Assembly: GCF_024508335.1 (NCBI RefSeq)
Contig: NZ_CP101988.1
Span: forward strand, 620,001 to 684,000
Direction: 5' to 3'
Origin: Cellulomonas chengniuliangii
GTDB taxonomy: Bacteria > Actinomycetota > Actinomycetes > Actinomycetales > Cellulomonadaceae
Length of the DNA stretch: 64,000 nt
Each line of letters begins with the position of its first letter. Positions within the stretch are counted from its first letter, which is position 1. Position numbers and translations under genes: made by a program. The notes beneath the pieces are model-generated. The model was not told the origin of the DNA and made no database searches. It was given only the letters and a program-made list of their open reading frames with translations. Below, piece after piece: positions 29,069 through 61,684 of this stretch.

Positions 29069-29953
29069 ATGGATGCCCTGTTCTCACAGCTGTTCGCCGG
29101 GCTGAGCCTGGGATCGGTGCTGCTGCTCGCGGCACTGGGCCTGGCGCTCACCTTCGGCCAGATGGGCGTCATCAACATGGCGCACGGCGAGCTCATGATG
29201 GCCGGCGCCTACACCGCGTACGTGGTGCAGGGCATCGTCTCCGACGCCGGGGCGTCGCTGCTCGTCTCGCTCGTCCTCGGCTTCCTGGTGGGCGGCCTGA
29301 TCGGGCTGCTGCTGGAGGTCACGCTGCTGTCCCGCATGCACCGCAGGCCCCTCGACACGCTCTTGGTCACGTGGGGCGTCGCCCTGGTGCTCCAACAGTT
29401 GGCGCGAGACGTGTTCGGGGCGCCGAACGTGGACGTGCGGGCGCCGCAGTGGCTCTCCGGAGCCGTGCAGGTCTTCGGGATCGGCATGCCGAAGACCCGC
29501 CTGTTCATCCTGCTCGTGGCGATCGTGTGCGTGACCGCCCTGGCGCTCGTGCTGCGCCTGACGCCCCTGGGACGGCAGATCCGGGCCACGGTGCAGAACC
29601 GCGACCTCGCCGAGACCACCGGCATCTCGACGCGGGCCACCGACCGGCTGACGTTCTTCATCGGGTCCGGCGTCGCCGGGGTCGCAGGCGTCACCCTGAC
29701 GCTGCTCGGGTCGATCGGCCCGACGCTCGGCACCGCCTACATCGTCGACGCGTTCCTCGTGGTCGTCGCGGGAGGCATCGGCCAGCTCAAGGGCACCGTG
29801 ATCGCCGCGTTCGCCCTGGGGCTGCTGCAGGCCACCATCGAGTACTCGACCACCACCAGCATCGCCAAGGTGCTGGTCTTCGTGGCCATCGTCGCGTTCC
29901 TGCAGGCCAGGCCGCAGGGCCTGGTCGCCGTGCGGACTCGGAGCCTGGCATGA
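29069..29953 (+). CDS. urtB: Urea ABC transporter permease
   Basis: 294-residue branched-chain-type permease with about eight membrane helices. Landmarks: LGLALTFGQMGVINMAHGELMMAGAYTAY at the N-terminus, the cytoplasmic coupling region LGRQIRATVQNRDLAETTGI, and VAGGIGQLKGTVIAAFALGLLQATIEY near the C-terminus, all typical of UrtB. The ATG has AAAGGGG upstream. The stop overlaps the urtC start (ATGA). Confidence 0.94.
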   Translation: MDALFSQLFAGLSLGSVLLLAALGLALTFGQMGVINMAHGELMMAGAYTAYVVQGIVSDAGASLLVSLVLGFLVGGLIGLLLEVTLLSRMHRRPLDTLLVTWGVALVLQQLARDVFGAPNVDVRAPQWLSGAVQVFGIGMPKTRLFILLVAIVCVTALALVLRLTPLGRQIRATVQNRDLAETTGISTRATDRLTFFIGSGVAGVAGVTLTLLGSIGPTLGTAYIVDAFLVVVAGGIGQLKGTVIAAFALGLLQATIEYSTTTSIAKVLVFVAIVAFLQARPQGLVAVRTRSLA

Positions 29954-51960: not shown

Positions 51961-53184
51961 CTAAGACCGGGACCCGACCGCCAAGGACGTGGCCGTGGCG
52001 AGCGCCTCGGGCACGGCCGCGAGGTACGCGTGGGCCACGTCGTACGGCTCCAAGCCGGTGGCACGCACGCCGTCCACGTCGTTCTCCTCGTGCGCGAGGA
52101 CCGCCGCGAGGGTGGGGCCGTACGGGCCCGTCTGCTCGTTGAGGGCGTGCGCGACATCGGCCGAGACGCCTGTGCGGCTGACCAGGTCGGACGTCGCGAT
52201 GCCCAACTGGGAGGCGACGGCCGAGAGCAGCCCGACGGTGTACGCGGCGTCGTCGCCGGCGAGGGCGCGGCACGTCAGCGCCCGGGTCAGGGTGGCCCAG
52301 AGCGCGCCCACCGTGGTGGGGCGGGCGTCGATGAGCGAGGCCATGGCCAGGGCCGCGAGCTGCTGGGGGCCGACGAGCACCACGGCCTGGTGCACCGAGT
52401 CGATCTCACGGCGCAGCGCGTAGACGCTCGAGTTGACCAGGTGCAGCACGCGGATCGCGAGCTCGGGGTCCGAGCTGACCACGCGCACCACCGCGGCCTG
52501 GTCGATGGACTCCCCGCTGAGCAGCTGCATGAGCTCGAGGCACTGCAGCTCGCCGGCGGAGAAGTCGCGGCCCGTGGTCTCGGGGTGCCGCTGGAACATG
52601 GGGCCCTGCAGCAGGTCGATGCCGGCCTGCTGGCCGATGCGGATCCGCTCGCGGTTGTCGGCGCGCTCGCCGATCACCGTGGCGCCCGCGGCGTGCGCGC
52701 GGGACGCGAGCTCGCTGACCCGGTCGGGTCCCCGGGCCACGTCCACCTTGACCAGGTCGACCTGGGGGAGCAGCTCGTCCTGCGAGGAGCTGCCGGTGTA
52801 GTCGGCCAACGCGATGCGCGCGCCGCGCTGCCGTGCCGCGTCGACGAGCAGACGGGCGTCGGCGCGCTGGGCGAGCAGGGGGGACAGTTCGAGGACCACC
52901 CCGTGCGGGCTGGTCGGGACCTCGAGCTCGCCGGTGAGCAGTCGGTTGGTGGCGCGGAGCAGGACGGCGCGATCGCCGGCCAGCGCGGCGAGGTCGAGCT
53001 TGTCGTACTCCGCCTCGATGAGGTGCTCGACCTGGTGCTCGGGGAAGGCCGTGCCATTGGCGTCCAGCACGACCACTCGGATGGCGTACCCGTACACCGC
53101 CCGGTCCGAGTGCACCACGGGCTGCCGCAGCACGGTGATCTCGCTGACCCGTGCGGCCGGGTTGCGACCATCGAGGACACTCAT
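51961..53184 (-). CDS. EAL-HDOD regulator with degenerate EAL domain
   Basis: 407 residues from an ATG with GGGGGA seven bases upstream. The N-terminal half has an EAL-like fold (LRQPVVHSDRAVYGYAIRV; LVDAARQRGARIALADYTG; DLVKVDVARGPD), but the catalytic EAL motif is replaced by YAIRV and the metal ligands are missing, so no c-di-GMP hydrolysis is expected. The C-terminal HDOD domain (about 200-400) contains LECLELMQLLSGESIDQAAV-like sequence, SSDPELAIRVLHLVNSSVYALRREIDSV and SQLGIATSDLVSRTGVS. YuxH/CdgJ-type proteins of this build act in motility and signalling. A CTCAT-N16-CCGAT promoter upstream matches those of flagellar genes next door. Confidence 0.88.
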   Translation of the reverse strand: MSVLDGRNPAARVSEITVLRQPVVHSDRAVYGYAIRVVVLDANGTAFPEHQVEHLIEAEYDKLDLAALAGDRAVLLRATNRLLTGELEVPTSPHGVVLELSPLLAQRADARLLVDAARQRGARIALADYTGSSSQDELLPQVDLVKVDVARGPDRVSELASRAHAAGATVIGERADNRERIRIGQQAGIDLLQGPMFQRHPETTGRDFSAGELQCLELMQLLSGESIDQAAVVRVVSSDPELAIRVLHLVNSSVYALRREIDSVHQAVVLVGPQQLAALAMASLIDARPTTVGALWATLTRALTCRALAGDDAAYTVGLLSAVASQLGIATSDLVSRTGVSADVAHALNEQTGPYGPTLAAVLAHEENDVDGVRATGLEPYDVAHAYLAAVPEALATATSLAVGSRS

Positions 53185-53235: not shown

Positions 53236-53261
53236 ATCGGCCTGCTGCCTGCGGAGATGAG
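53236..53261 (-). promoter_or_regulatory. Sigma28-like promoter of the EAL-HDOD gene
   Basis: Minus strand: CTCAT (53261-53257), 16 bases, CCGAT (53240-53236). The -10 element ends about 51 bases before the ATG. TTTTCA lies just upstream of the -35 element. Confidence 0.6.
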
Positions 53262-53301
53262 TGAAAACGCTTGCGCAGTTCCAGGCGGAGCCGCGTGCGG
53301 C

Positions 53302-53724
53302 TCAGCCGAGGGGCGCGTGCAGGGGCCAGTCGTCGTTGAGGACCGTCTGCACGGCCGCCCCGGTGCTGGGGTCGACCACGAGCGGGGCCAGCAGGTTCGC
53401 CGTGTGCGGCACCCCGCCGTCGGCGGGGTGCACCACGACCAGCAGCAGGTGCTCCTCGGGGCTCCCGCCGACGAGCGCCTTCGCCTCAGCGTCGACACGC
53501 GGTGAGTAGTCGGGGAAGAACAAGCGCGGCGGGACGACGAACAGCCGCACCGGGGCCCGGCCTGCGGGGGCGCTCCGCATCGCGAACAGGGTGCCCTCGT
53601 CGTCCAGTGCGTCGAGTGTGAACGTCTCGTGCCCAGGGAGCCCGGGGAGCGGGGCGCGCAGGTGGAGCTGGTGCGGGACCGTCGTCTGATGTGTGGGGCT
53701 GTCCGCCACCGCCACGGCGCTCAC
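53302..53724 (-). CDS. fliW: Flagellar assembly factor FliW
   Basis: 140 residues. FliW binds flagellin and antagonises the translational repressor CsrA in other bacteria. Family features: PLPGLPGHETFTLDALDDEGTLFAMRS, RLFVVPPRLFFPDYSPRVD and LLVVVHPADGGVPHTANLLAPLVVDP, with the usual NLxAPxV block. The GTG start overlaps the flgL stop (GTGA), so it closes the flgN-flgK-flgL-fliW unit. No csrA gene is visible beside it, although csrA often follows fliW. Confidence 0.94.
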   Translation of the reverse strand: MSAVAVADSPTHQTTVPHQLHLRAPLPGLPGHETFTLDALDDEGTLFAMRSAPAGRAPVRLFVVPPRLFFPDYSPRVDAEAKALVGGSPEEHLLLVVVHPADGGVPHTANLLAPLVVDPSTGAAVQTVLNDDWPLHAPLG

Positions 53725-54626
53725 CGGAGGTAGTCCATCAGGCTGGGCTGGAGCACCTTGGCGGCGGCTCCGAGCGCGCCCTGGTAGGCGACCTCCTGCA
53801 TGCCGAGCTGGAGGATGATCTCGGCCAGGTCGATGTCCTCGATCGCGGAGAGCTGGGTCTTGGTGGTCTGCGCGCTCTCGGCCAGGTTGGTCTGCGCGTT
53901 GATCACGCGGGTCTGCCGGGCGCCGACGGCCGACAGCTCGGTGAGCACCGTCTCGAAGCGGGAGTCCAGCGTGTTGAGCTGCGCTGTGGCGTCGCCGCCC
54001 GGGGTGCGCAGCGTCGCCGCGATCGTGTCGAGCAGCGCGAACACGGACTGCGCGCCGTCGCCGTAGATCTTCGCGCCGTCGGCGTCGACGCGGATCGTGG
54101 TGGCGTCGGCGACCCGGCGCTCGACCGTCGCGGACCCCGCCCCGGTGAACGAGTACGTCGGGGGTGTGGTGGTGCTGTCGACGGTGAAGGCGACCCCCGC
54201 GTCGGAGGTGCCGGCGAAGACGGTGCGCCCCAGGTAGGTGGTGTTCGCCTGCTGGAGCAGCTCGTCGCGCAACCCCTCGATCTCGACGGCGATCGCCTCG
54301 CGGGCCGGCGTGTTCATGGCGCCGCTGCCGCTCTGCACCACGAGGTCGCGCACCCGGCGCATCGTCGTGGAGGTGGTCTGCAGGGCGCTGTCGATCGTGG
54401 TGAGCCAGGCGTTGCCGTCGTCGGCGTTGCGCTTGTACTGGTTCTGCACCCGCTGCTCGCCGCGCAGGCGGAGCATGTCGGAGGCTCCGGCGGGGTCGTC
54501 CGACGGCACGTTGATCTTCTTGCCGCTGGACATCTTCGCCTGCAGGTCGGCCATGGTCGACAGGTTGAGCTGCAGGTTGGCCAGCGTCGAGCGCTGGACG
54601 GACTGGTGCGTCACACGGTTGATCAT
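53721..54626 (-). CDS. flgL: Hook-filament junction protein FlgL (HAP3)
   Basis: 301 residues. The N-terminal flagellin-like D0/D1 segment is INRVTHQSVQRSTLANLQ, then LQAKMSSGKKINVPSDDPAGASDMLRLRGEQ. The C-terminal helix (DIDLAEIILQLGMQEVAYQGALGAAAKV) is typical of FlgL. It joins the hook to the filament outside the cell. The start is two bases after the flgK stop. Confidence 0.95.
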   Translation of the reverse strand: MINRVTHQSVQRSTLANLQLNLSTMADLQAKMSSGKKINVPSDDPAGASDMLRLRGEQRVQNQYKRNADDGNAWLTTIDSALQTTSTTMRRVRDLVVQSGSGAMNTPAREAIAVEIEGLRDELLQQANTTYLGRTVFAGTSDAGVAFTVDSTTTPPTYSFTGAGSATVERRVADATTIRVDADGAKIYGDGAQSVFALLDTIAATLRTPGGDATAQLNTLDSRFETVLTELSAVGARQTRVINAQTNLAESAQTTKTQLSAIEDIDLAEIILQLGMQEVAYQGALGAAAKVLQPSLMDYLR

Positions 54627-54628
54627 CT

Positions 54629-56056
54629 TTACCGCCCCACGATTCCGGTTCTGTTGATCAGGGTGTCGAGCATCTCGTCGATCGCGCTCATCACCCGGGC
54701 GGCGCCCTCGTAGGCGCGCTGGTAGGCGAGCAGGTTGACCGTCTCCTCGTCGGTGTCGACGCTCGTCTGCGCGACCTGCTGCGCGGCGGCCGACGCCCGC
54801 GTGGCCTCAGCGGCGGTGGCGCGCGACACGGCGCTGCCGGTGCTGACGCCGAGCTGGACGACGAACGCGCTCCAGGCCGCGTCGGGGCCGTCCACGGCCG
54901 CGCCGAGCTGGGCGATCTTGTCGGCGAACGAGCCGTCGAGCGCGCCTGCGCCCGGAGCCGCGACCGCGACCAGTGCCGGGTCGTCGAACGCGACCGTGAG
55001 GCCGAGGGCGGCGGGCCGCCCCGCCTCGAAGGTGAAGAAGTCGCCCCCCGGCGCGCCGGTGGTGGTCAGCGCCTGGCCGTGCAACGCGTTGACCTGAGTC
55101 GCGAGCTGGGTCGCCAACTTGTCGTAGGAGGCCGCGGCCTCGGTGAGCATGCCACCCGTGCCGCCCGCGGCTGGCGGAGCCAGCACCGACAGGAGGCCGG
55201 CGACCTGGCCGCCCTCGAGCCCTGCGGAGCGGGACGTGTCGGCGGCCCAGACGACACGGACGTCCGCGCCGCCGGTCGCGTCGGCGAACCCGGCGGCGCC
55301 GGTCACCGCGAGCGCGCGGGCCTTCGAGCCGTCGACCATCATGTTGCCGCCGACGAGGACGTCGATCTGGCCGTTCTCCTGAGTGCGGGTGGTCGCGCCG
55401 ACGAGGCCCGACAGCTCGGTGACGAGCAGGTCACGCTGGTCCTTGAGCTCGTTCGCGCTCGAGCCCGAGTTCTCGACGGCCAGGATGCGCTTGTTCAGGT
55501 CCGCGATGTTCGCCGCCGCGGTGTTCGCCTTCTCGACCAGCGACGCTGTCTGGGTGCGGGCCTGCGTCCACTGGGTGCCCGCCGCGGTGTACAGGGTGGC
55601 GATGCGGTCGCCCACGGCGGCGGCCGTCTCTAGGAGCACCGCCCGCGACGACTCCTTGTTGGGCGTGTTGGCGACGTCCTGGAAGGCCGCCCACAGGTCG
55701 GTGAGCTGTGTCGCGAGCCCGGTGGCGGCCGGTTCGCCGATGTTCGTCTCGAGCAGCTTCGACGCCGCGGCGCGAGCGCCCAGGTACGAGCTGCTGGCCG
55801 TGGTGGTGCGGACCTGCGCGTCGAGGAACACGTCGTTGAGCCGCGCGATGTCGGTCACGGCCGTGCCGTAGCCCGGGCCGTTCGTCGTGGAGAACATCGA
55901 CGGCAGCTGCGACGCGGGCAGCGACGACAGCGCGGCGCGCTGGCGCGTGTAGCCGACGGTGTTGGCGTTGGCGATGTTCTGCCCGGTGACCTCGAGGGCC
56001 TGGCGCTGGGCGATCAGCGAGCTCAGCGCGGTGCCGAGTCCGGAGAAGGTGCTCAC
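54629..56056 (-). CDS. flgK: Hook-filament junction protein FlgK (HAP1)
   Basis: 475 residues from a GTG with GAGAGGCC upstream. The N-terminal rod-type motif is LEVTGQNIANANTVGYTRQRA, and the C-terminal helix ETVNLLAYQRAYEGAARVMSAIDEMLDTLINR-like region is present (read in parts). The middle contains the usual Ala/Thr-rich D2 region. It precedes FlgL in the junction and lies 11 bases after flgN. Confidence 0.95.
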   Translation of the reverse strand: MSTFSGLGTALSSLIAQRQALEVTGQNIANANTVGYTRQRAALSSLPASQLPSMFSTTNGPGYGTAVTDIARLNDVFLDAQVRTTTASSSYLGARAAASKLLETNIGEPAATGLATQLTDLWAAFQDVANTPNKESSRAVLLETAAAVGDRIATLYTAAGTQWTQARTQTASLVEKANTAAANIADLNKRILAVENSGSSANELKDQRDLLVTELSGLVGATTRTQENGQIDVLVGGNMMVDGSKARALAVTGAAGFADATGGADVRVVWAADTSRSAGLEGGQVAGLLSVLAPPAAGGTGGMLTEAAASYDKLATQLATQVNALHGQALTTTGAPGGDFFTFEAGRPAALGLTVAFDDPALVAVAAPGAGALDGSFADKIAQLGAAVDGPDAAWSAFVVQLGVSTGSAVSRATAAEATRASAAAQQVAQTSVDTDEETVNLLAYQRAYEGAARVMSAIDEMLDTLINRTGIVGR

Positions 56057-56067
56057 GTGGGGGCCTC

Positions 56068-56550
56068 TCAGAAAGACTGGTCGAGCAGCTGGGCGCTGCG
56101 GTCGGATTCCGGCGCGAGGCCGTGGGGAGCGTAGGTCTGCACCGTGTCCTGCAGGGACATGAGCGTCTCCTGGGTGGCGCGGTGCGACATCGCAAGCAAC
56201 TCGCGGTTGCCGTTGGCGAGCTGGGAGATCTCGGAGGTGAGGGTGACGAAGGCGTCGCGGTGCGCGCGCAGCAGCTCGTCCCACGGGCTCGGGGCGTGCT
56301 GGGACAAGGTCAGCAGGCTGGTGTCCTCGTCCACGCCGAGCATCGCGGCGGCGGCCTCGGCCTCGATCGAGCGGCCGAGCTCCGCCTCGCGGATCTGCTC
56401 GAGCACGGACTCGACCTCACGCGTCGCGTGGCCGAGCCAGCGGGTGCGTCCGCTGGTGAGGATCAGCTGCTCCTCCTCCAGCTTGAAGAGCAGGAGCTCG
56501 AGCAGGCGCCGCTCTTGCCACAGCACGTCGGACAGCCGGCTGAGGACCAC
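56068..56550 (-). CDS. flgN: Flagellar export chaperone FlgN
   Basis: 160 residues, mainly helical: LSDVLWQERRLLELLLFKLEEEQLILTSGRTRWLG is read at the start and ANGNRELLAMSHRATQETLMSL near the end. FlgN-family proteins bind FlgK and FlgL and pilot them to export. The position directly before flgK agrees. The GTG start has GAGAGGCGG about ten bases upstream. It is first in the minus-strand unit and divergent from fliA. Confidence 0.88.
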   Translation of the reverse strand: MVLSRLSDVLWQERRLLELLLFKLEEEQLILTSGRTRWLGHATREVESVLEQIREAELGRSIEAEAAAAMLGVDEDTSLLTLSQHAPSPWDELLRAHRDAFVTLTSEISQLANGNRELLAMSHRATQETLMSLQDTVQTYAPHGLAPESDRSAQLLDQSF

Positions 56551-56609
56551 CTGGCCACCGCCTCTCGCTCGTCGTTCGGCGCGGTCCGCGCCGGGGTTCT
56601 GGCTTCCTG

Positions 56610-56635
56610 ATCGGATGCGGCGCCCAGGTCATGAC
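56610..56635 (-). promoter_or_regulatory. Sigma28-like promoter of flgN-flgK-flgL-fliW
   Basis: Minus strand: GTCAT (56635-56631), 16 bases, CCGAT (56614-56610); AAAA abuts the -35 side. The -10 element ends about 60 bases before the flgN start. Confidence 0.55.
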
Positions 56636-56781
56636 CTTTTCGCGGGGGGTGATCTGCACTCGATGGGGTGGTCCGGCTGGCGCCGGGGCGCGTGGGCGGG
56701 GGGTCATGGACGGGTGTCCAGCGTCTTCACCGTGTCGTCGAGCCATGCGCCACGCCGGATGTGACCTTCGTCACACTCGTC

Positions 56782-57816
56782 GTGGCGGGATCTCCTGATG
56801 CGCCTCCTGTGGGCGATTCGACCGTCCGCAATCGTCCGCTTCGTCATTCTCGCCCGACGCGCAGCGCCAGCGGCGATCTGCCCGACGGGCTCAAGCACCT
56901 CGGGGCGGCGGTCGAGAGAACCTGGGTGACAGCCTCCGGACACCCCACCGACGACCTCGTGGTCGCGAACCTGGCCTTGGTCGGGTACCACGTCAGCGAG
57001 GTCATGATGCGGGTGCCCCCCACCGTGACGCGCGACGAGCTCGCCTCGGCCGGGAGCCTGGCCCTCGTGCTGGCGGCCCGTGCCTACGACGCGTCCACCG
57101 GGGTGCCGTTCGCCCGCTACGCGGCGCTGCGTATCCGCGGAGCGCTGCTCGACGAGCTGCGCTCCATGGACTGGGCGACCCGCGGGGCCCGCCACCGCGC
57201 CCGCGAGCTCGCCGCGACGAACGACCGCCTGACCGGCGCGCTCGGTCGCGCCCCCTCGCGCGAGGAGCTGGCCCAGGCCCTCGGCACGGACGTCACCGCC
57301 GTCGACCAGGCCCGCCAGGACGCCGAGCGCCGCGTGCTCAGCATCGACGCGACGGTCAACCCGGTCGCGGACCTGCTGAGCGACGACAGCCCCGGCCCGG
57401 AGGACGCGCTGCTCATCAGCGAGCGCATGCGCTACCTGCGCGCCGGCGTCGAGGCGCTGCCTGACCGACTGCGCCAGGTCGTCGAGGAGCTGTTCTTCCA
57501 CGACCGCCCGGTCGCCGAGCTCGCCGCCGAGATGGGCGTCACCCAGTCCCGGATCAGCCAGCTGCGCACCGAGGCTCTCGGCCTGCTCCGCGACGGCCTC
57601 AACGCGAGCCTGGACCCCGATCTGGTCACCACCGGCGAGCGCCCGCAGGGCGTCGCCGAACGACGTCGGCAGACGTACTTCGCCGCCGTGGCGGCTCGTG
57701 CGGCCACCTCGGCGAACCGCGCCGCCATGACCGAGGCGGTCTCCGTGCCGACCCCGCGCCGTGGCGCGGACAGCGGTCGTGCCGTCGGAGCCCCGTCGCG
57801 GCTCACCAGCGCCTGA
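56782..57816 (+). CDS. fliA: FliA/WhiG-type (sigma-28) RNA polymerase sigma factor
   Basis: 344 residues from the GTG used here. The start is uncertain by up to 50 codons because no ribosome site stands out (other in-frame GTGs at 56761, 56809 and 56926). Region 2 shows VANLALVGYHVSEVMMRVP and YDASTGVPFARYAALRIRGALLDELRSMDW, diagnostic of FliA/WhiG. Region 3 has APSREELAQALGTDVTAVDQAR. Region 4 has LPDRLRQVVEELFFHDRPVAELAAEMGVTQSRISQLRTEAL with its helix-turn-helix. The C-terminal 65 residues are an unusual extension. It lies between the divergent flagellar units, making it the likely reader of the shared TCA-N17-CCGAT promoters. Confidence 0.88.
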   Translation: MAGSPDAPPVGDSTVRNRPLRHSRPTRSASGDLPDGLKHLGAAVERTWVTASGHPTDDLVVANLALVGYHVSEVMMRVPPTVTRDELASAGSLALVLAARAYDASTGVPFARYAALRIRGALLDELRSMDWATRGARHRARELAATNDRLTGALGRAPSREELAQALGTDVTAVDQARQDAERRVLSIDATVNPVADLLSDDSPGPEDALLISERMRYLRAGVEALPDRLRQVVEELFFHDRPVAELAAEMGVTQSRISQLRTEALGLLRDGLNASLDPDLVTTGERPQGVAERRRQTYFAAVAARAATSANRAAMTEAVSVPTPRRGADSGRAVGAPSRLTSA

Positions 57817-57862
57817 GCGCCGCCCAGCGCGCACGGCCGGAGAAAAAAAGCCGCACGAACTC

Positions 57863-57888
57863 CTCAGGAGTGGGGCCACCGGCCCGAT
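57863..57888 (+). promoter_or_regulatory. Sigma28-like promoter of flagellin gene
   Basis: CTCAG (57863-57867), 16 bases, CCGAT (57884-57888). A run of seven A residues (57843-57849), rare in this DNA, lies 13 bases upstream of the -35 element where an UP element would be. The -10 element ends 56 bases before the ATG. Confidence 0.7.
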
Positions 57889-57944
57889 GAGGGAGGTGTG
57901 CCCACGGATGGGCAGCACTAGACCCCTCAAGGAGGACGTTCATC

Positions 57945-58769
57945 ATGGGTCTCTCGATCAACCAGAACATCGCCGCGGTCAACTCGTACCGCAACCTGTC
58001 GAACACGCAGAACGACCTGAGCAAGTCGCTCGAGAAGCTCTCCTCGGGCTTCCGCATCAACCGCGCGGCGGACGACGCTGCCGGCCTCGCGATCTCCGAG
58101 GGCCTGCGCTCGCAGGTCGGTGGCCTCAAGGTCGCCGCCCGCAACGCCCAGGACGGCATCTCGGTCGTCCAGACCGCTGAAGGCGCGCTGACCGAGGTCC
58201 ACGCGATCCTGCAGCGTGTTCGTGACCTCGCGGTCCAGGGCGCCAACGACTCGAACAACGACAAGGCTCGCGAGAACATCGAGACCGAGATCACGAGCCT
58301 CGGCGCCGAGCTCAACCGCATCTCGGAGGCCACGAACTTCAACGGCACCAAGCTGCTCAACGGCGACAACGCCAGCCTGAAGTTCCAGGTCGGGGCAGAT
58401 GGTGACCAGAACAGCATGATCGAGGTCACGCTCGCGGACGTCGCCGCGACCGTCGAGAACATCGGCGACCTCAAGGTGACGGACCACGACACCGCGCAGG
58501 CGTCGATCGTTTCTGTCGACGCGGCCATCCAGGCCATCTCGACCAACCGCGCCGAGCTCGGTGCGCTGCAGAACCGGTTCGAGCACACCATCAAGAACAT
58601 CAACGTGTCGGTGGAGAACCTCTCGGCCTCCGAGAGCCGCATCCGCGACACCGACATGGCGTCCGAGATGGTCAGCTTCACCCGGGCGCAGATCCTGTCG
58701 CAGGCCGGCACGGCGATGCTCGCGCAGGCCAACCAGATCCCCCAGGGCGTGCTCTCGCTCCTGCGGTGA
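57945..58769 (+). CDS. fliC: Flagellin
   Basis: 274 residues. Only the conserved D0/D1 helices are present: an N-terminal GLSINQNIAAVNSYRNLSNTQ and LEKLSSGFRINRAADDAAGLAISE, and a C-terminal ILSQAGTAMLAQANQIPQGV ending in LLR. The surface D2/D3 domains are almost missing, as in short Gram-positive flagellins. AAGGAGG lies before the ATG, the strongest ribosome site in the region. A clear Rho-independent terminator follows, so the mRNA is monocistronic and likely abundant. Confidence 0.98.
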   Translation: MGLSINQNIAAVNSYRNLSNTQNDLSKSLEKLSSGFRINRAADDAAGLAISEGLRSQVGGLKVAARNAQDGISVVQTAEGALTEVHAILQRVRDLAVQGANDSNNDKARENIETEITSLGAELNRISEATNFNGTKLLNGDNASLKFQVGADGDQNSMIEVTLADVAATVENIGDLKVTDHDTAQASIVSVDAAIQAISTNRAELGALQNRFEHTIKNINVSVENLSASESRIRDTDMASEMVSFTRAQILSQAGTAMLAQANQIPQGVLSLLR

Positions 58770-58807
58770 TCGCGACCTCACCCGTGAGGTGAGGGCACAG
58801 CACCACA

Positions 58808-58855
58808 CGATCGGCGGTGGGTGGACAACCGTCCGCCCACCGCCGATCGCTTTTT
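58808..58855 (+). terminator. Rho-independent terminator after flagellin
   Basis: Arms CGATCGGCGGTGGG (58808-58821) and 58836-58849 form a perfect 14-bp stem, with GGAC/GTCC continuing it inside the loop, followed by CTTTTT. It is the only stem in the window with a true U-tract. Confidence 0.93.
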
Positions 58856-58903
58856 CAGGCCAGTGACGAGCACGTAGGCACGCAAGACGGAGGAAGGCGC
58901 CAG

Positions 58904-60265
58904 ATGGGATCGCTCGGGATCGACGGGTTGGTCAGCGGTCTGAACACCACGGATCTGATCAACCAGCTCATGCTTGCCGAGGCCGGGCCGCAGCGGCTCC
59001 TCGTGTCGAAGCAGTCGAGCACGAGCAGCATGGTCACGGCGCTGCAGGCGCTGAACGCGAAGCTCTCGTCGCTGGGCGACGCTGCGACGGCGGCCACCAA
59101 GACCTCGTCCTGGGCAGCGGCGCACGCCACGTCCTCGCACTCCTCCGTGACGGCCACCGCCACGGCGGGCGCCCAGCCGTCCACTCTGAGCTTCACCGTC
59201 TCGCAGGTCGCGCAGTCCCAGTCCTCTCTCGTGACGCTCCCGAGCGGCTACGACACCACGACCCCGAGTTTCACCATCTCGCAGGGTGGCGTCGACACGG
59301 TTGTCACCGCTGCCAGCAGCGACATCACCGACATCGTCTCCGCCTTCAACGCGTCCGGCACGGGTGTCAAGGCCGCGGCGGTCAACGTCGGCACGGCGGC
59401 GGCGCCCGAGTACCGGCTCCAGCTCACGGGAGTCGAGACCGGGGCCGGCAAGGGCTTCTCGCTGTCGGTTGCCACCGGCGCGGACGGCTCAGGCACGCAG
59501 CCATTGACGCTGAACGACGTGCGCACCGCCCAGGACGCCCGTCTGACCCTGTGGGCGGGCACCGCGTTCGAGCAGCCCGTCACCTCCTCGACGAACACGT
59601 TCTCCGGTTTGATGGCGGGTGTCGACGTCACGGTCACCCAGGTCGAGGCCGAGCCGGTCTCCCTCACGGTGGCCCGCGACGACGCGGCAGTGACCAAGCT
59701 GGCCACCGACCTGATGGGCTCCCTCGGCGTGGTCATGTCCGAGATCTCCAGCCGCACGGCGCCGACGACAACCACGGCTGCCGACGGCCGCTCGATCGTC
59801 ACCGGCGGGCTGTTCAGCGGCGACAGCGCCGTGCGTGGCCTGCAGCAGCAGCTGCAGAGCGCCATGGCCTTCCCCGTGGACGGGATGTCGCCCTCCGAGG
59901 TGGGCATCAGCATCAACGCCAAGACCGGCCAGTTCGACTTCGACGAGGAGAAGTTCGCCGCGGCGCTCGCCGCCGACCCGGCACGGGTCGAGAAGATCGT
60001 CTCCGGGCTCGCCGCGCGCGTCGGGGAGGTGGCCACAGGAGCCTCCGACAAGTACGAGGGCACCCTGACGCTGAAGATCCAGAGCCAGGAGGGCATGGTC
60101 AAGAGCCTCGGCGAGCAGATCGCGTCGTGGGACCTGCGCCTGGCGTCCCGCCGCGAGGGCCTGCAGAAGACCTACGCGGCACTCGAGGTCTCGCTCTCGA
60201 ACCTCCAGTCCCAGTCGAGCTGGCTGACTAGCCAGATCGCGTCGCTCCCGTCCACGAGCTCCTGA
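58904..60265 (+). CDS. fliD: Flagellar filament cap protein FliD (HAP2)
   Basis: 453 residues. The N-terminal HAP2 block is LGIDGLVSGLNTTDLINQLM. The middle is a Ser/Thr/Ala-rich outer domain. The C-terminal block has VGISINAKTGQFDFDEEKFAAAL and a coiled coil (MVKSLGEQIASWDLRLASRREGLQKTYAALEVSLSNLQ read in parts). It caps the growing filament. GGAGGAAGG precedes the ATG. It is followed by fliS after 45 bases. Confidence 0.95.
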   Translation: MGSLGIDGLVSGLNTTDLINQLMLAEAGPQRLLVSKQSSTSSMVTALQALNAKLSSLGDAATAATKTSSWAAAHATSSHSSVTATATAGAQPSTLSFTVSQVAQSQSSLVTLPSGYDTTTPSFTISQGGVDTVVTAASSDITDIVSAFNASGTGVKAAAVNVGTAAAPEYRLQLTGVETGAGKGFSLSVATGADGSGTQPLTLNDVRTAQDARLTLWAGTAFEQPVTSSTNTFSGLMAGVDVTVTQVEAEPVSLTVARDDAAVTKLATDLMGSLGVVMSEISSRTAPTTTTAADGRSIVTGGLFSGDSAVRGLQQQLQSAMAFPVDGMSPSEVGISINAKTGQFDFDEEKFAAALAADPARVEKIVSGLAARVGEVATGASDKYEGTLTLKIQSQEGMVKSLGEQIASWDLRLASRREGLQKTYAALEVSLSNLQSQSSWLTSQIASLPSTSS

Positions 60266-60310
60266 GGCCGGGACCTCCTCCGACCTGATCCGTGACCCAA
60301 GGAGACCGGC

Positions 60311-60751
60311 ATGTATGACGCCCGATCGCGGTACCTCGCCGACACCGTCGCGACGGTCGGATCCGAGCGCCTGCTGACGATGCTGTACGACCGGATGCTG
60401 CTCGACGTGGAGCGGGCCGAGGCGGCGCAGCGTGCCGGTGACCGGGTGGAAGGCACCGCGCAGCTCACGCACGCCCAGGAGATCCTCTCGGAGCTCATCG
60501 CGAGCCTCGACGTCGACTCCTGGGACGGCGGGCCTGGTCTCATGTCGATCTACACGTTCCTGCTCTCCGAGCTCATCGAGGCCTCGACGACGGCGGACCC
60601 CGACCGCACGGCGGCGTGCCGCGGGATCATCGAGCCGCTGCGTGAGGCGTGGCACGGCGCCGCCGATGCCGTGGCACGGACCGCGGCTCCGGCGCCGCCG
60701 CCCGCCATGACCAGCACCGAGGCCCTCATGGGCGAGCTGGGCGTCGGCTGA
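60311..60751 (+). CDS. fliS: Flagellin export chaperone FliS
   Basis: 146 residues. FliS motifs: YLADTVATVGSERLLTMLYDRMLLDVERAE at the start and HAQEILSELIASLDV in the middle, then LMSIYTFLLSELIEAS. It prevents premature polymerisation of flagellin in the cytoplasm. AAGGAGA lies before the ATG. A Pro/Ala tail follows residue 120. The next gene starts one base after its stop codon. Confidence 0.95.
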   Translation: MYDARSRYLADTVATVGSERLLTMLYDRMLLDVERAEAAQRAGDRVEGTAQLTHAQEILSELIASLDVDSWDGGPGLMSIYTFLLSELIEASTTADPDRTAACRGIIEPLREAWHGAADAVARTAAPAPPPAMTSTEALMGELGVG

Positions 60752-60752
60752 C

Positions 60753-61115
60753 ATGGGCTCCGACACGGCAGTCGCCGTGGCCGGCGACGACCAGGTCGAG
60801 GCGAGCGGCCCGGCCGATGGCTGGGACGCGGCCCTCGACGCCCTCGAGATGGCAGCCGCGCAGGCTCAGGCGCTGGCGCTGGCAGGCCTCGCCGGCGAGG
60901 CGACGTCGCCCGCGGTATGGGCGCCTGGCTCTGAAGACCTTGGCCCTCTCCCCGCTCGCCTGGCCGCGCGAGCCCAGCAGATCCTCGACGCCCAGGCCGA
61001 GGCGGCCCAGCTCGTGGCCGAGGCGTCCGCGCTGAGCCGGCGGCACCTGGAGACGGTCGCGGCCCTCCGCCCGCACCCCTCCGGGACCCCCGTGTACCTC
61101 GACGTCGAGGGCTGA
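60753..61115 (+). CDS. Hypothetical protein in the FliT position
   Basis: 120 residues immediately after fliS. An acidic N-terminus is followed by helical segments (WDAALDALEMAAAQAQALALAGLAG; LAARAQQILDAQAEAAQLVAEASALSRRHLETVAAL). FliT, the chaperone for FliD, is small, helical and often follows fliS, so a FliT-like role is suggested by position, size and predicted helicity. There is no sequence motif that proves it. Confidence 0.65.
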   Translation: MGSDTAVAVAGDDQVEASGPADGWDAALDALEMAAAQAQALALAGLAGEATSPAVWAPGSEDLGPLPARLAARAQQILDAQAEAAQLVAEASALSRRHLETVAALRPHPSGTPVYLDVEG

Positions 61116-61227
61116 CGGCGCGTTTCGGCGGGTCGCCACGCGACGGCCCGACCCGGACACCGGCGGACACACAGGCGCGAACCCGTTCGGCCGTCCGGGT
61201 GAAGGTCGGCCTCGGGGGGTGGAACCC

Positions 61228-61253
61228 CTCAGGTCCTCGTGAGGGCCTCCGAT
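61228..61253 (+). promoter_or_regulatory. Sigma28-like promoter of flgB-flgC-fliE-fliF unit
   Basis: CTCAG (61228-61232), 16 bases, CCGAT (61249-61253), ending 83 bases before the flgB ATG; spacing is identical to that of the flagellin promoter. Confidence 0.65.
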
Positions 61254-61336: not shown

Positions 61337-61684
61337 ATGTCCATGTTCAGCTCGGTCAGCTATGTGGCGCTCAACAGCGCCCTGGACGGCCTGGCGCTGC
61401 GACAGCGCGCCATCGCGGAGAACGTCGCGAACATCCAGACCCCTGGCTACCACGCCCAGCGCGTGTCCTTCGAGGACGCCCTCGGTCGCGCGGTGAGCAG
61501 GGGCACGGGCGCCGCGTCCGCCACGACGGCGCGGTCCCTCGAGCCCACCCGCGAGGACGGCAACAACGTCAACCTCGACGCCGAGACCCTGCTCAACATC
61601 GACACCAATCTGCGCTACCAGCTCGCGACGCAAGCCGTCAGCGGCACGTACTCCGGGATCCGCACCGCCATGAGGAGCAGCTGA
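61337..61684 (+). CDS. flgB: Flagellar basal-body rod protein FlgB
   Basis: 115 residues. The rod motif LALRQRAIAENVANIQTPGYHAQRVSFEDAL is present (read in parts), and the C-terminal part has DAETLLNIDTNLRYQLATQAVSGTYS. It forms the proximal rod with FlgC. GAGGTGG lies upstream; a second ATG two codons later is possible. Its last base is shared with the flgC ATG. Confidence 0.94.
   Translation: MSMFSSVSYVALNSALDGLALRQRAIAENVANIQTPGYHAQRVSFEDALGRAVSRGTGAASATTARSLEPTREDGNNVNLDAETLLNIDTNLRYQLATQAVSGTYSGIRTAMRSS

Follow-up and report, generated by a model that had tools for sequence, protein, structure and literature searches.

The canonical sigma-28 promoter has a spacing of N15 between TAAA and GCCGATAA, the enteric flagellar scheme is tiered, and the anti-sigma partner FlgM commonly accompanies flagellar FliA but is no defining trait of WhiG. 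The flagellar promoter of the zoospore former Actinoplanes missouriensis reportedly reads CTCA(N15-17)GCCGAA, as Jang et al. are said to have described (J Bacteriol, 2016). In the accessible part of one source, the flagellar/WhiG-type consensus is given as TAAA / GCCGATAA, and a WhiG-RsiG-(c-di-GMP) switch is described for Streptomyces and Rubrobacter (PMC8325347). According to the available part of another, FliA of Pseudomonas putida controls the phosphodiesterase gene bifA, favouring swimming, with two mapped bifA starts, one of which has a putative sigma-70 promoter (PMC5300878). The c-di-GMP enzymes are more numerous in flagellated Actinobacteria, a correlation taken from the accessible part of PMC10746217.

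The window analysed here is the whole stretch of 64,000 nucleotides from Cellulomonas chengniuliangii, and its motility genes and predicted promoters are as follows.

51961..53184 (-), EAL-HDOD protein gene, ATG 52 bp past the motif (Pfam HDOD 57.5 bits)
53236..53261 (-), predicted flagellar-sigma promoter of the EAL-HDOD gene, CTCA-N17-CCGAT
53302..53724 (-), fliW, within the flgN-flgK-flgL-fliW unit (Pfam FliW 69.5 bits)
53721..54626 (-), flgL, same unit; open reading frame with relatives by tblastn, named from sequence and gene order
54629..56056 (-), flgK, same unit; open reading frame with relatives by tblastn, named from sequence and gene order
56068..56550 (-), flgN (Pfam FlgN 70.3 bits)
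56610..56635 (-), predicted flagellar-sigma promoter of flgN-flgK-flgL-fliW, GTCA-N17-CCGAT
56668..57816 (+), open frame of a flagellar sigma factor, FliA/WhiG type, recognition helix TQSRISQLR
57863..57888 (+), predicted flagellar-sigma promoter of fliC, CTCA-N17-CCGAT
57945..58769 (+), fliC, flagellin (Pfam Flagellin_N 158.4 bits, Flagellin_C 101 bits)
61228..61253 (+), predicted flagellar-sigma promoter of the flgB operon, CTCA-N17-CCGAT
61337..61684 (+), flgB, which opens the rod/basal-body operon (TIGR01396 FlgB 74.6 bits, cut-off 59.05)

The initial annotation had reported one signature at these four promoter places, and TCA-N17-CCGAT is found at each of them with identical spacing; its coordinates were right, but its printed strings were one base longer than those coordinates. 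The motif ends 52, 60, 57 and 84 bases before the likely starts of the EAL-HDOD gene, flgN, fliC and flgB, in keeping with the 50-85 bases claimed; four, however, is too low a count, as ten sites are present in the motility cluster, six of them outside the window. The EAL match of the EAL-HDOD protein (27.1 bits) is under the Pfam cut-off of 31.3, and the true start of the sigma factor lies probably further inside its open frame, judging from where the matches of its relatives begin. The motif occurs eight times in the window against a shuffle mean of 1.38, eight being reached by 1 of 100 shuffles; two matches (48971 and 61702) lie within genes of the opposite strand, one (17000) stands 105 bp before a small ORF, and the eighth is at 29777. 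These statistics alone are modest and too weak to decide, and the decisive tests, independent of the four reported sites, are the spacing scans in relatives, the placement before orthologous genes and the genome context.

In the loci of 46 relatives, 84 of the 114 fliC, flgB and flgN upstreams carried T[ACT]A-N17-CCGAT (flgN 34/44, fliC 27/39, flgB 23/31) and 30 lacked it, any other spacing reaching at most 8, with the test restricted to fliC matches of at least 55% identity, to matches beginning no later than residue 25 and to upstreams not cut by contig ends. The same form was present in 8 of 194 control upstreams of operon-internal genes, in none of 47 upstreams of the sigma gene and in none of 39 of fliW in these relatives. 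Its placement at fliC is near-fixed, from -80 to -93 among the exact matches, and it stands close to the start in 15 of the 35 EAL-HDOD matches, own included, the other 20 being without a site. When the spacing was varied from 11 to 23, [CT]TCA-Nk-CCGAT gave 59 matches at k=17 in the Cellulomonas loci (375 kb) against 0-5 at every other k, 16 against 0-3 in Sanguibacter/Flavimobilis, and 7 against 0-1 in Cellulosimicrobium/Xylanimonas/Puerhibacterium; a clear spike was not found in the loci of Actinotalea (1 at k=17), Demequina (4 at k=17, also 4 at k=12) or Jonesia/Timonella (4 at k=17, also 4 at k=20). The loci were grouped by name, with L074, L079, L095, L099, L106, L113 and L129 in no group. 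Motif density in the family genomes had a median of 16.8 per Mb in 51 with a close sigma orthologue versus 12.0 in 56 without a match below 1e-15, in a comparison that ignores phylogeny and base composition and a rank test that excluded five genomes with a mid-strength match; it was also fairly high (median 15.6) in nine genomes with only a distant match.

The predicted -35 element keeps the register of TAAA but has C as its second base and a free fourth base, TCAn-N16-CCGAT versus TAAA-N15-GCCGAT. The T and A of TCA correspond to the first and third bases of TAAA, the flgN site of Mobiluncus reads CTAAAG in register, and some kin have TAAA, TAAG or TTAT there. The second base is C in 79, T in 2 and A in none of 81 sites placed among 96 upstreams of high-GC Micrococcales, a count confined to fliC matches of at least 44% identity, matches beginning by residue 10 and upstreams not cut by contig ends; TAAA-Nk-CCGAT with k from 11 to 23 is absent from the 375 kb of Cellulomonas loci. 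The likeness to the sigma-28 consensus seen by the initial annotation thus stands for the register, spacing and CCGAT core, but its "GC-rich -35" is too simple. Sigma-28/FliA/SigD/WhiG promoters share with the present ones these three traits, a FliA/WhiG-type sigma in the cluster and flagellar and chemotaxis targets, whereas the -35 here is TCA and purines, often GGG, not AA, follow CCGAT. CCGATAA was accordingly rejected as the downstream half. In a set of 70 sites aligned by T.A and CCGAT, CCGAT is preceded by G in 25, T in 19, C in 16 and A in 10, the first base after it is G in 42, A in 20 and C in 8, the third is G in 50, and the spacer carries little information; this set left out fliC matches of less than 55% identity, matches beginning past residue 7, upstreams cut by contig ends and eight loci (Demequina, Jonesia, Mobiluncus, Timonella, L055). 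A dyad search was noisy and dominated by coding repeats: with CGAT as the downstream half, the top-ranked partner was CTCA/TCAG for Cellulomonas, CTCA for Sanguibacter and TTAC for Microbacterium, and with CCGA, GCCG or CGAA other dyads ranked first.

In the whole genome, YTCA-N17-CCGAT has 50 matches, and the spacings N18-N27 total 300, or 30 each (Poisson P about 5e-4); between 598 and 758 kb no plus-strand match of another spacing is present among those listed, and N17 has eight cluster sites there on that strand. The own motility cluster (673-712 kb) holds ten sites, nine YTCA and one GTCA, which precede the EAL-HDOD gene, flgN, fliC, flgB, flbD, fliM, cheA, an MCP gene, a periplasmic-binding-protein/MCP pair and cheB, that is, rod, filament, switch and chemotaxis units as judged from gene order. 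The expectation that matches would be confined to motility genes fails literally, as 28 of the 50 exact matches lie inside genes, but 13 of the 16 that are promoter-placed (a called start on the same strand 25-110 bp further on; observed 32-105 bp) belong to flagellar, chemotaxis or c-di-GMP genes, the periplasmic-binding-protein gene followed by an MCP gene included. The other three (424 kb, 637 kb and glmM at 2915 kb) precede genes without a known motility link, and six of the 50 are intergenic, with no gene called to start in the next 110 bp. Outside the cluster, an MCP or GGDEF gene follows four of the seven promoter-placed YTCA matches (hypergeometric about 6e-9), and these four are listed below together with a site of the GTCA form.

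147 kb, site before an MCP gene
420 kb, site of the GTCA form before a GGDEF gene
1265 kb, site before a PAS-GGDEF-EAL gene
1497 kb, site before a GGDEF-EAL gene
2869 kb, site before a GGDEF gene

A good site is absent at one MCP gene (1375 kb) and at five of the nine GGDEF genes of this genome. Genus orthologues of three outside-cluster genes scored 11 or more in 5/7, 3/6 and 3/6 cases (own genome counted), with a random-window false rate that is inflated by the recruitment of its loci through motif matches themselves. A reversed-pattern control (50 forward versus 13 reversed in the own genome; also a family search) was dropped as a poor one, because genomes without the sigma also show about three times more forward than reversed matches, and the spacing and orthologue controls were used instead. 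The proposal of a promoter signature for motility units is borne out, at the level of sequence, by the spacing, orthologue and genome-context tests.

A FliA/WhiG-type sigma had also been placed in the cluster, rightly so: Pfam regions 2, 3 and 4 are over their cut-offs, and the best matches are TIGR02479 (FliA_WhiG) in NCBIfam and E. coli FliA (6pmi) in the PDB. Its TIGR02479 score of 152.9 bits is below the curated cut-off of 189.6, and by these profiles it is a divergent FliA/WhiG relative. No match to FlgM (PF04316) was observed in the genome at E up to 0.001, the controls E. coli, B. subtilis and T. maritima all matching. A C-terminal tail is conserved within the sigma clade (residues 328-345 in the own protein, consensus G-V-A-x-R-R-R-x-x-Y-F-A-x-V-A-x-R) and is absent in 9/9 outgroup sigmas; 73 relatives were compared after shortened sigma frames were dropped (the L113 tail is cut by a contig end), and alignment A1 comprises 40 of 74 sigma sequences, own included. 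At the recognition-helix position that follows SQ-L/I, R (R300 in the own protein) replaces the canonical H in 35/35 aligned members. A change of E to Q in this helix was dropped as the cause of TCA, since Actinoplanes has E and yet uses CTCA; the change of H to R would fit the shift better and is offered as a hypothesis, because Jonesia, Mobiluncus and Timonella have R with mixed -35s (C, G, A and T once each among the 4 sites placed in 8 upstreams).

Very probably, the four reported sites, together with at least eleven others in the genome, are promoters of the FliA/WhiG-type sigma at 56668-57816, and we infer that they mark transcription starts and are read by this sigma rather than another. 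If the motif were instead the site of a transcription factor, such as a motility activator or a BldD-like c-di-GMP repressor, the c-di-GMP genes preceded by it and the site 1496983-1497011, readable both ways as CTCAT...GCCGATGAG, would find an explanation; the placement of the 16 sites 32-105 bp before starts with a fixed gap of 17 bp, the identity of the downstream half with the CCGAT core of the consensus TAAA / GCCGATAA in the accessible part of PMC8325347, and the occurrence of TAAA, TAAG or TTAT at the corresponding bases in some kin leave this a very small probability. That another sigma reads the promoters, the cluster sigma having another role, is highly unlikely. Three FliA-family sigmas are given for A. 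missouriensis in the available part of PMC13293333 and two more weak sigma matches occur in the present genome, but both are remote (1.7e-24 and 1.2e-8) and contain stops within the matched stretch. In Cellulomonas and Sanguibacter the motif spike tracks the loci of the cluster sigma, and it is absent at those of Microbacterium, which have another recognition helix (SHAAVSQQR) and a -35 of TTA. Chance combined with a post hoc choice of motif by the initial annotation can appeal to the one window shuffle in 100 that reached the observed count; it is negligible given that the relatives' loci, the other spacings and the internal-gene controls all separate from the N17 form.

Read as a flagellar-sigma promoter, the motif may be compared with the known systems. 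Among flagellins of the Actinoplanes group, CTCA-N16..18-CCGA[A/T] is present in 13 of 14 distinct upstreams, a Pseudonocardiales MAG supplying one of the 14 (16 genomes sampled, 2 without a flagellin match, L107 left out); their loci around the sigma gene gave no spacing spike, the CTCA form being seen only in their flagellin upstreams. The Cellulomonas-kin sites contain this actinomycete-type CTCA -35 at N16-18 before CCGA. They resemble the A. missouriensis promoter in the CTCA, the CCGA core, the spacing range (N16-18 before CCGA equals N15-17 before GCCGA) and the flagellar targets, and they differ in a core ending in T (CCGAT), a free base before it and a spacing nearly always of 17. The promoter is therefore, on its predicted elements, of a known actinomycete type, and the new part is its extension to the kin of Cellulomonas, in place of a zoospore former, and to c-di-GMP enzymes. 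With the WhiG-RsiG-(c-di-GMP) switch, as far as the accessible part of its source goes, the locus shares a sigma of the same family and a c-di-GMP connection, which here would lie in the targets, the GGDEF/EAL genes with the promoter. With the P. putida FliA-bifA case, similarly limited to the available part of the source, it shares a flagellar sigma acting on a c-di-GMP enzyme gene, predicted here in a different phylum, whereas two starts were mapped there.

Holoenzyme with the cluster sigma would read T-C-A at -35 and CCGAT with following purines at -10, 17 bp apart, that is, a canonical sigma-28 register with an altered -35. Since the rod, switch, filament, chemotaxis, EAL-HDOD and c-di-GMP enzyme genes carry the promoter and the sigma gene does not, a two-step circuit is likely: another signal would produce the sigma, which would then turn on the motility programme together and reset c-di-GMP, in a direction that we likewise infer. 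A wider and rather doubtful reading is that motile actinomycetes have a rebuilt flagellar sigma, with the helix changed, TCA read in place of TAA(A), the tail gained and FlgM lost, which alone drives rod, switch, filament, chemotaxis and c-di-GMP enzyme genes together and has the tail, in place of FlgM, as a control handle for its restraint, perhaps via c-di-GMP that the regulon's own GGDEF/EAL proteins would set.

Thus, a concrete regulon is proposed for one group of flagellated actinomycetes, and it looks single-tier, in contrast to the enteric scheme, with one kind of predicted promoter before both a basal-body operon and flagellin. That some c-di-GMP enzyme genes carry the flagellar promoter may be one possible reason for the excess of such enzymes in flagellated Actinobacteria, and the tail and helix changes of the sigma would be new leads on how it is restrained and how its specificity shifted.

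The CTCA/GTCA-N17-CCGAT element, which the initial annotation had placed before four motility genes, was found before all of them exactly where described, around the gene of a FliA/WhiG-type sigma factor:

53236-53261, minus strand, site before the EAL-HDOD gene
56610-56635, minus strand, site before flgN, of the GTCA form
56668-57816, plus strand, sigma factor gene
57863-57888, plus strand, site before the flagellin gene fliC
61228-61253, plus strand, site before flgB

The window corresponds to G000:C1:620001-684000. Family searches at the locus recognised FliW, FlgN, flagellin, FlgB, the HDOD protein and the FliA/WhiG-type sigma, the EAL match of the HDOD protein being sub-threshold. TCA-N17-CCGAT occurs eight times in the window against a shuffle mean of 1.38, with 1 of 100 shuffles equally high, an excess that is probably above chance.

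The spacing and placement of the element are retained in relatives. In loci around the sigma gene scanned for [CT]TCA-Nk-CCGAT with k from 11 to 23, k=17 was found 59 times in Cellulomonas (375 kb) versus 0-5 for each other k, 16 versus 0-3 in Sanguibacter/Flavimobilis, 7 versus 0-1 in Cellulosimicrobium/Xylanimonas/Puerhibacterium, 5 versus 0-2 in Georgenia and 4 versus 0-2 in Mobiluncus/Actinomyces, these counts not being independent because the loci share descent; the same scan gave no clear k=17 spike in Actinotalea, Demequina, Jonesia/Timonella, Actinoplanes (sigma loci), Microbacterium or deltaproteobacteria. In the 150-nt upstreams of 46 relatives' loci (L051-L096), T[ACT]A-N17-CCGAT precedes fliC in 27/39, flgB in 23/31 and flgN in 34/44 cases (84/114 in sum), while the best other spacing, k=16, gave 5, 2 and 1, respectively, and the operon-internal controls carried the N17 form in 8/194 (flgK 3/43, flgL 0/42, fliW 0/39, fliS 2/34, fliD 3/36). 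The position before orthologous genes is nearly fixed, at -80 to -93 for fliC (exact matches) and -99 to -115 for flgB (at most one mismatch). The sigma gene itself lacks the N17 motif (0/47, own included, within 500 nt upstream of roughly residue 90). The fliC, flgN and flgB sites on a contig labelled Cellulosimicrobium cellulans DE0111 (L054) hardly differ from those of Cellulomonas sp. ACRRI (L052), possibly through mislabelling or recent transfer.

With T.A and CCGAT as anchors and the remaining bases unconstrained, 70 sites were placed: at the second -35 position 68 have C and 2 have T, G or A follows CCGAT in 62, the third base past CCGAT is G in 50, and the spacer is poor in information. 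Relaxing the downstream anchor to [ACGT]CGAT (81 sites placed in 96 high-GC Micrococcales upstreams) gave C 79, T 2 and A 0 at that position, and Demequina (7 placed in 9 upstreams) C 5, T 1 and A 1. TCAn-N16-CCGAT overlays the sigma-28-type flagellar consensus TAAA-N15-GCCGAT in register, the published form being TAAA with GCCGATAA (PMC8325347). Since A or T occupies the second -35 base in some kin (CTAAAG upstream of Mobiluncus flgN, CTTATG upstream of Timonella flgB, T in 5/5 placed Microbacterium sites), the -35 core reads, on sequence comparison, as T-N-A, its middle base being C in the high-GC kin of Cellulomonas, T in Microbacterium and A in the classical form. In five Microbacterium loci (L114, L115, L116, L118, L119) the variant GTTAC...CGCGATAGT stands 84-86 bp before flgN.

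In flagellin upstreams of the Actinoplanes group, CTCA-N16..18-CCGA[A/T] was found in 13 of 14 distinct sequences, the set of 14 including one sequence of a Pseudonocardiales MAG. Jang et al. in 2016 reportedly derived CTCA(N15-17)GCCGAA from mapped starts and are said to have concluded that all flagellar genes share a single sigma; the spacing reported for that promoter agrees with our flagellin count, and the Cellulomonas element thus belongs to an already known actinomycete promoter type. Among the searched listings of an open-licence library, no print report was found of the promoter in Cellulomonas kin, of its presence on their c-di-GMP genes, or of the sigma tail.

The sigma scored below the curated FliA_WhiG cut-off, its best solved relative being E. 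coli FliA (6pmi), and its best-matching named relatives are mostly Cellulomonas, with C. cellasea at 80% identity (very near records are perhaps absent from the comparison). The stretch RIRGALLDELRSMDW is conserved across Cellulomonas kin, which fits the conservation of CCGAT. The sigma has TQSRISQLR as its recognition helix, where E. coli FliA has GESRVSQLH and chain 6pfv, which we take to be Streptomyces WhiG, has TESRVSQIH; R300 is present in 35/35 actinomycete alignment rows and Q293 in 26/35. Microbacterium combines the helix SHAAVSQQR with a TTA -35; the relation of helix to -35 is a correlation only. RINWA replaces RIRGA in the Microbacterium sigma.

Past the recognition helix, the C-terminal tail of these motile actinomycete sigmas extends by about 55-110 residues, and by 214 in Mobiluncus, while the deltaproteobacterial/Acidimicrobial sigmas stop after 17-20. 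It contains a conserved block, G328-V-A-E-R332-R-R-x-x-Y337-F-A-x-V-A-x-R344:

57649-57702, plus strand, tail block GVAERRRxxYFAxVAxR, sigma residues 328-345, also in the sigma genes of relatives' loci L051-L112

Y337 is found in 35/35 rows and G328, R333 and R334 each in 34/35; a loose tail pattern is present in 40/40 Micrococcales and 13/16 Actinoplanes-group rows, and missing from Microbacterium (0/7), the deltaproteobacterial/Acidimicrobial sigmas (0/9) and the cut sequence L113 (0/1). A Pfam search of the tail gave no match, and a FlgM search whose positive controls worked gave none in the own genome; FlgM absence is reported for later actinobacterial classes in PMC10746217 and for motile actinobacteria in PMC4255298. 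The tail is a candidate control handle in place of the missing FlgM.

The expected confinement of the motif to motility genes was borne out in part by a scan of the whole genome (one contig, 3.57 Mb; context from a simple codon-usage gene caller): 28 of the 50 YTCA-N17-CCGAT matches lie inside genes, and most promoter-placed matches precede motility, chemotaxis or GGDEF genes. Of the 22 intergenic matches, 16 are followed at 25-110 bp by a start called on the same strand, nine of them in the motility cluster (before EAL-HDOD, fliC, flgB, flbD, fliM, cheA, an MCP, a periplasmic-binding protein then MCP, and cheB; the fliM start is uncertain, fliM and cheA are named by sequence and order, other regulon domains by Pfam) and seven outside:

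148.6 kb, MCP gene
424.3 kb (G000:C1:424273-424298, plus strand, L168), TTCA-N17-CCGAT before the gene of an unannotated 231-aa protein, at a guess NERD-like, with no obvious motility role
637.0 kb (window 17000), small protein gene
1265.8 kb, PAS-GGDEF-EAL gene
1497.0 kb, GGDEF-EAL gene
2869.0 kb, GGDEF gene
2915 kb, gene of a GlmM-like protein, named from sequence

The genome contains 9 GGDEF and 6 MCP-signal matches, and the fall of 4/7 outside sites on 13 GGDEF/MCP genes has a hypergeometric probability of about 6e-9 (3200 genes assumed). Of the 97 RTCA-form matches, read in context in part, a GTCA-form site (G000:C1:421837-421862, minus strand, L211) lies 57 bp upstream of a large GGDEF gene (418388-421780), bringing the GGDEF genes with a predicted flagellar promoter to 4/9. 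Two further MCPs are preceded by one-mismatch sites (1363254 plus, 2861231 minus), and the MCP at 1375 kb by a poor match only. In the seven genus genomes, own included, orthologues of the three GGDEF genes listed above scored at least 11 in 5/7, 3/6 and 3/6 cases; of the rest, four clearly have no site and the others score 9.7 (two), 9.8 and 10.9; between the own genome and its two nearest relatives, spacer letters vary before the PAS-GGDEF-EAL and GGDEF genes, with TCA and CCGAT unchanged. The site before the GGDEF-EAL gene (G000:C1:1496983-1497011, L166) is near-palindromic, CTCATCGG...CCGATGAG, with the promoter legible on both strands.

The 50 N17 matches compare with 300 over spacings N18-N27 (30 each); on the plus strand between 598 and 758 kb no other-spacing match is listed, versus eight cluster sites at N17. 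Across 121 family genomes, the median motif density is 16.8 per Mb where a close sigma orthologue exists (51 genomes, E < 1e-60), 15.6 with a distant match (9 genomes), 12.0 with no match below 1e-15 (56 genomes) and 10.2 where the sigma is 41-44% identical (5 genomes); a rank test comparing the 51 with the 65 that lack a close match, phylogeny ignored, gave P 9e-9.

Holoenzyme with this sigma would start transcription 7-10 bp past CCGAT, and production of the sigma would be the switch, after which the structural classes would be expressed jointly, with c-di-GMP presumably tuned by the EAL-HDOD and GGDEF/EAL targets.
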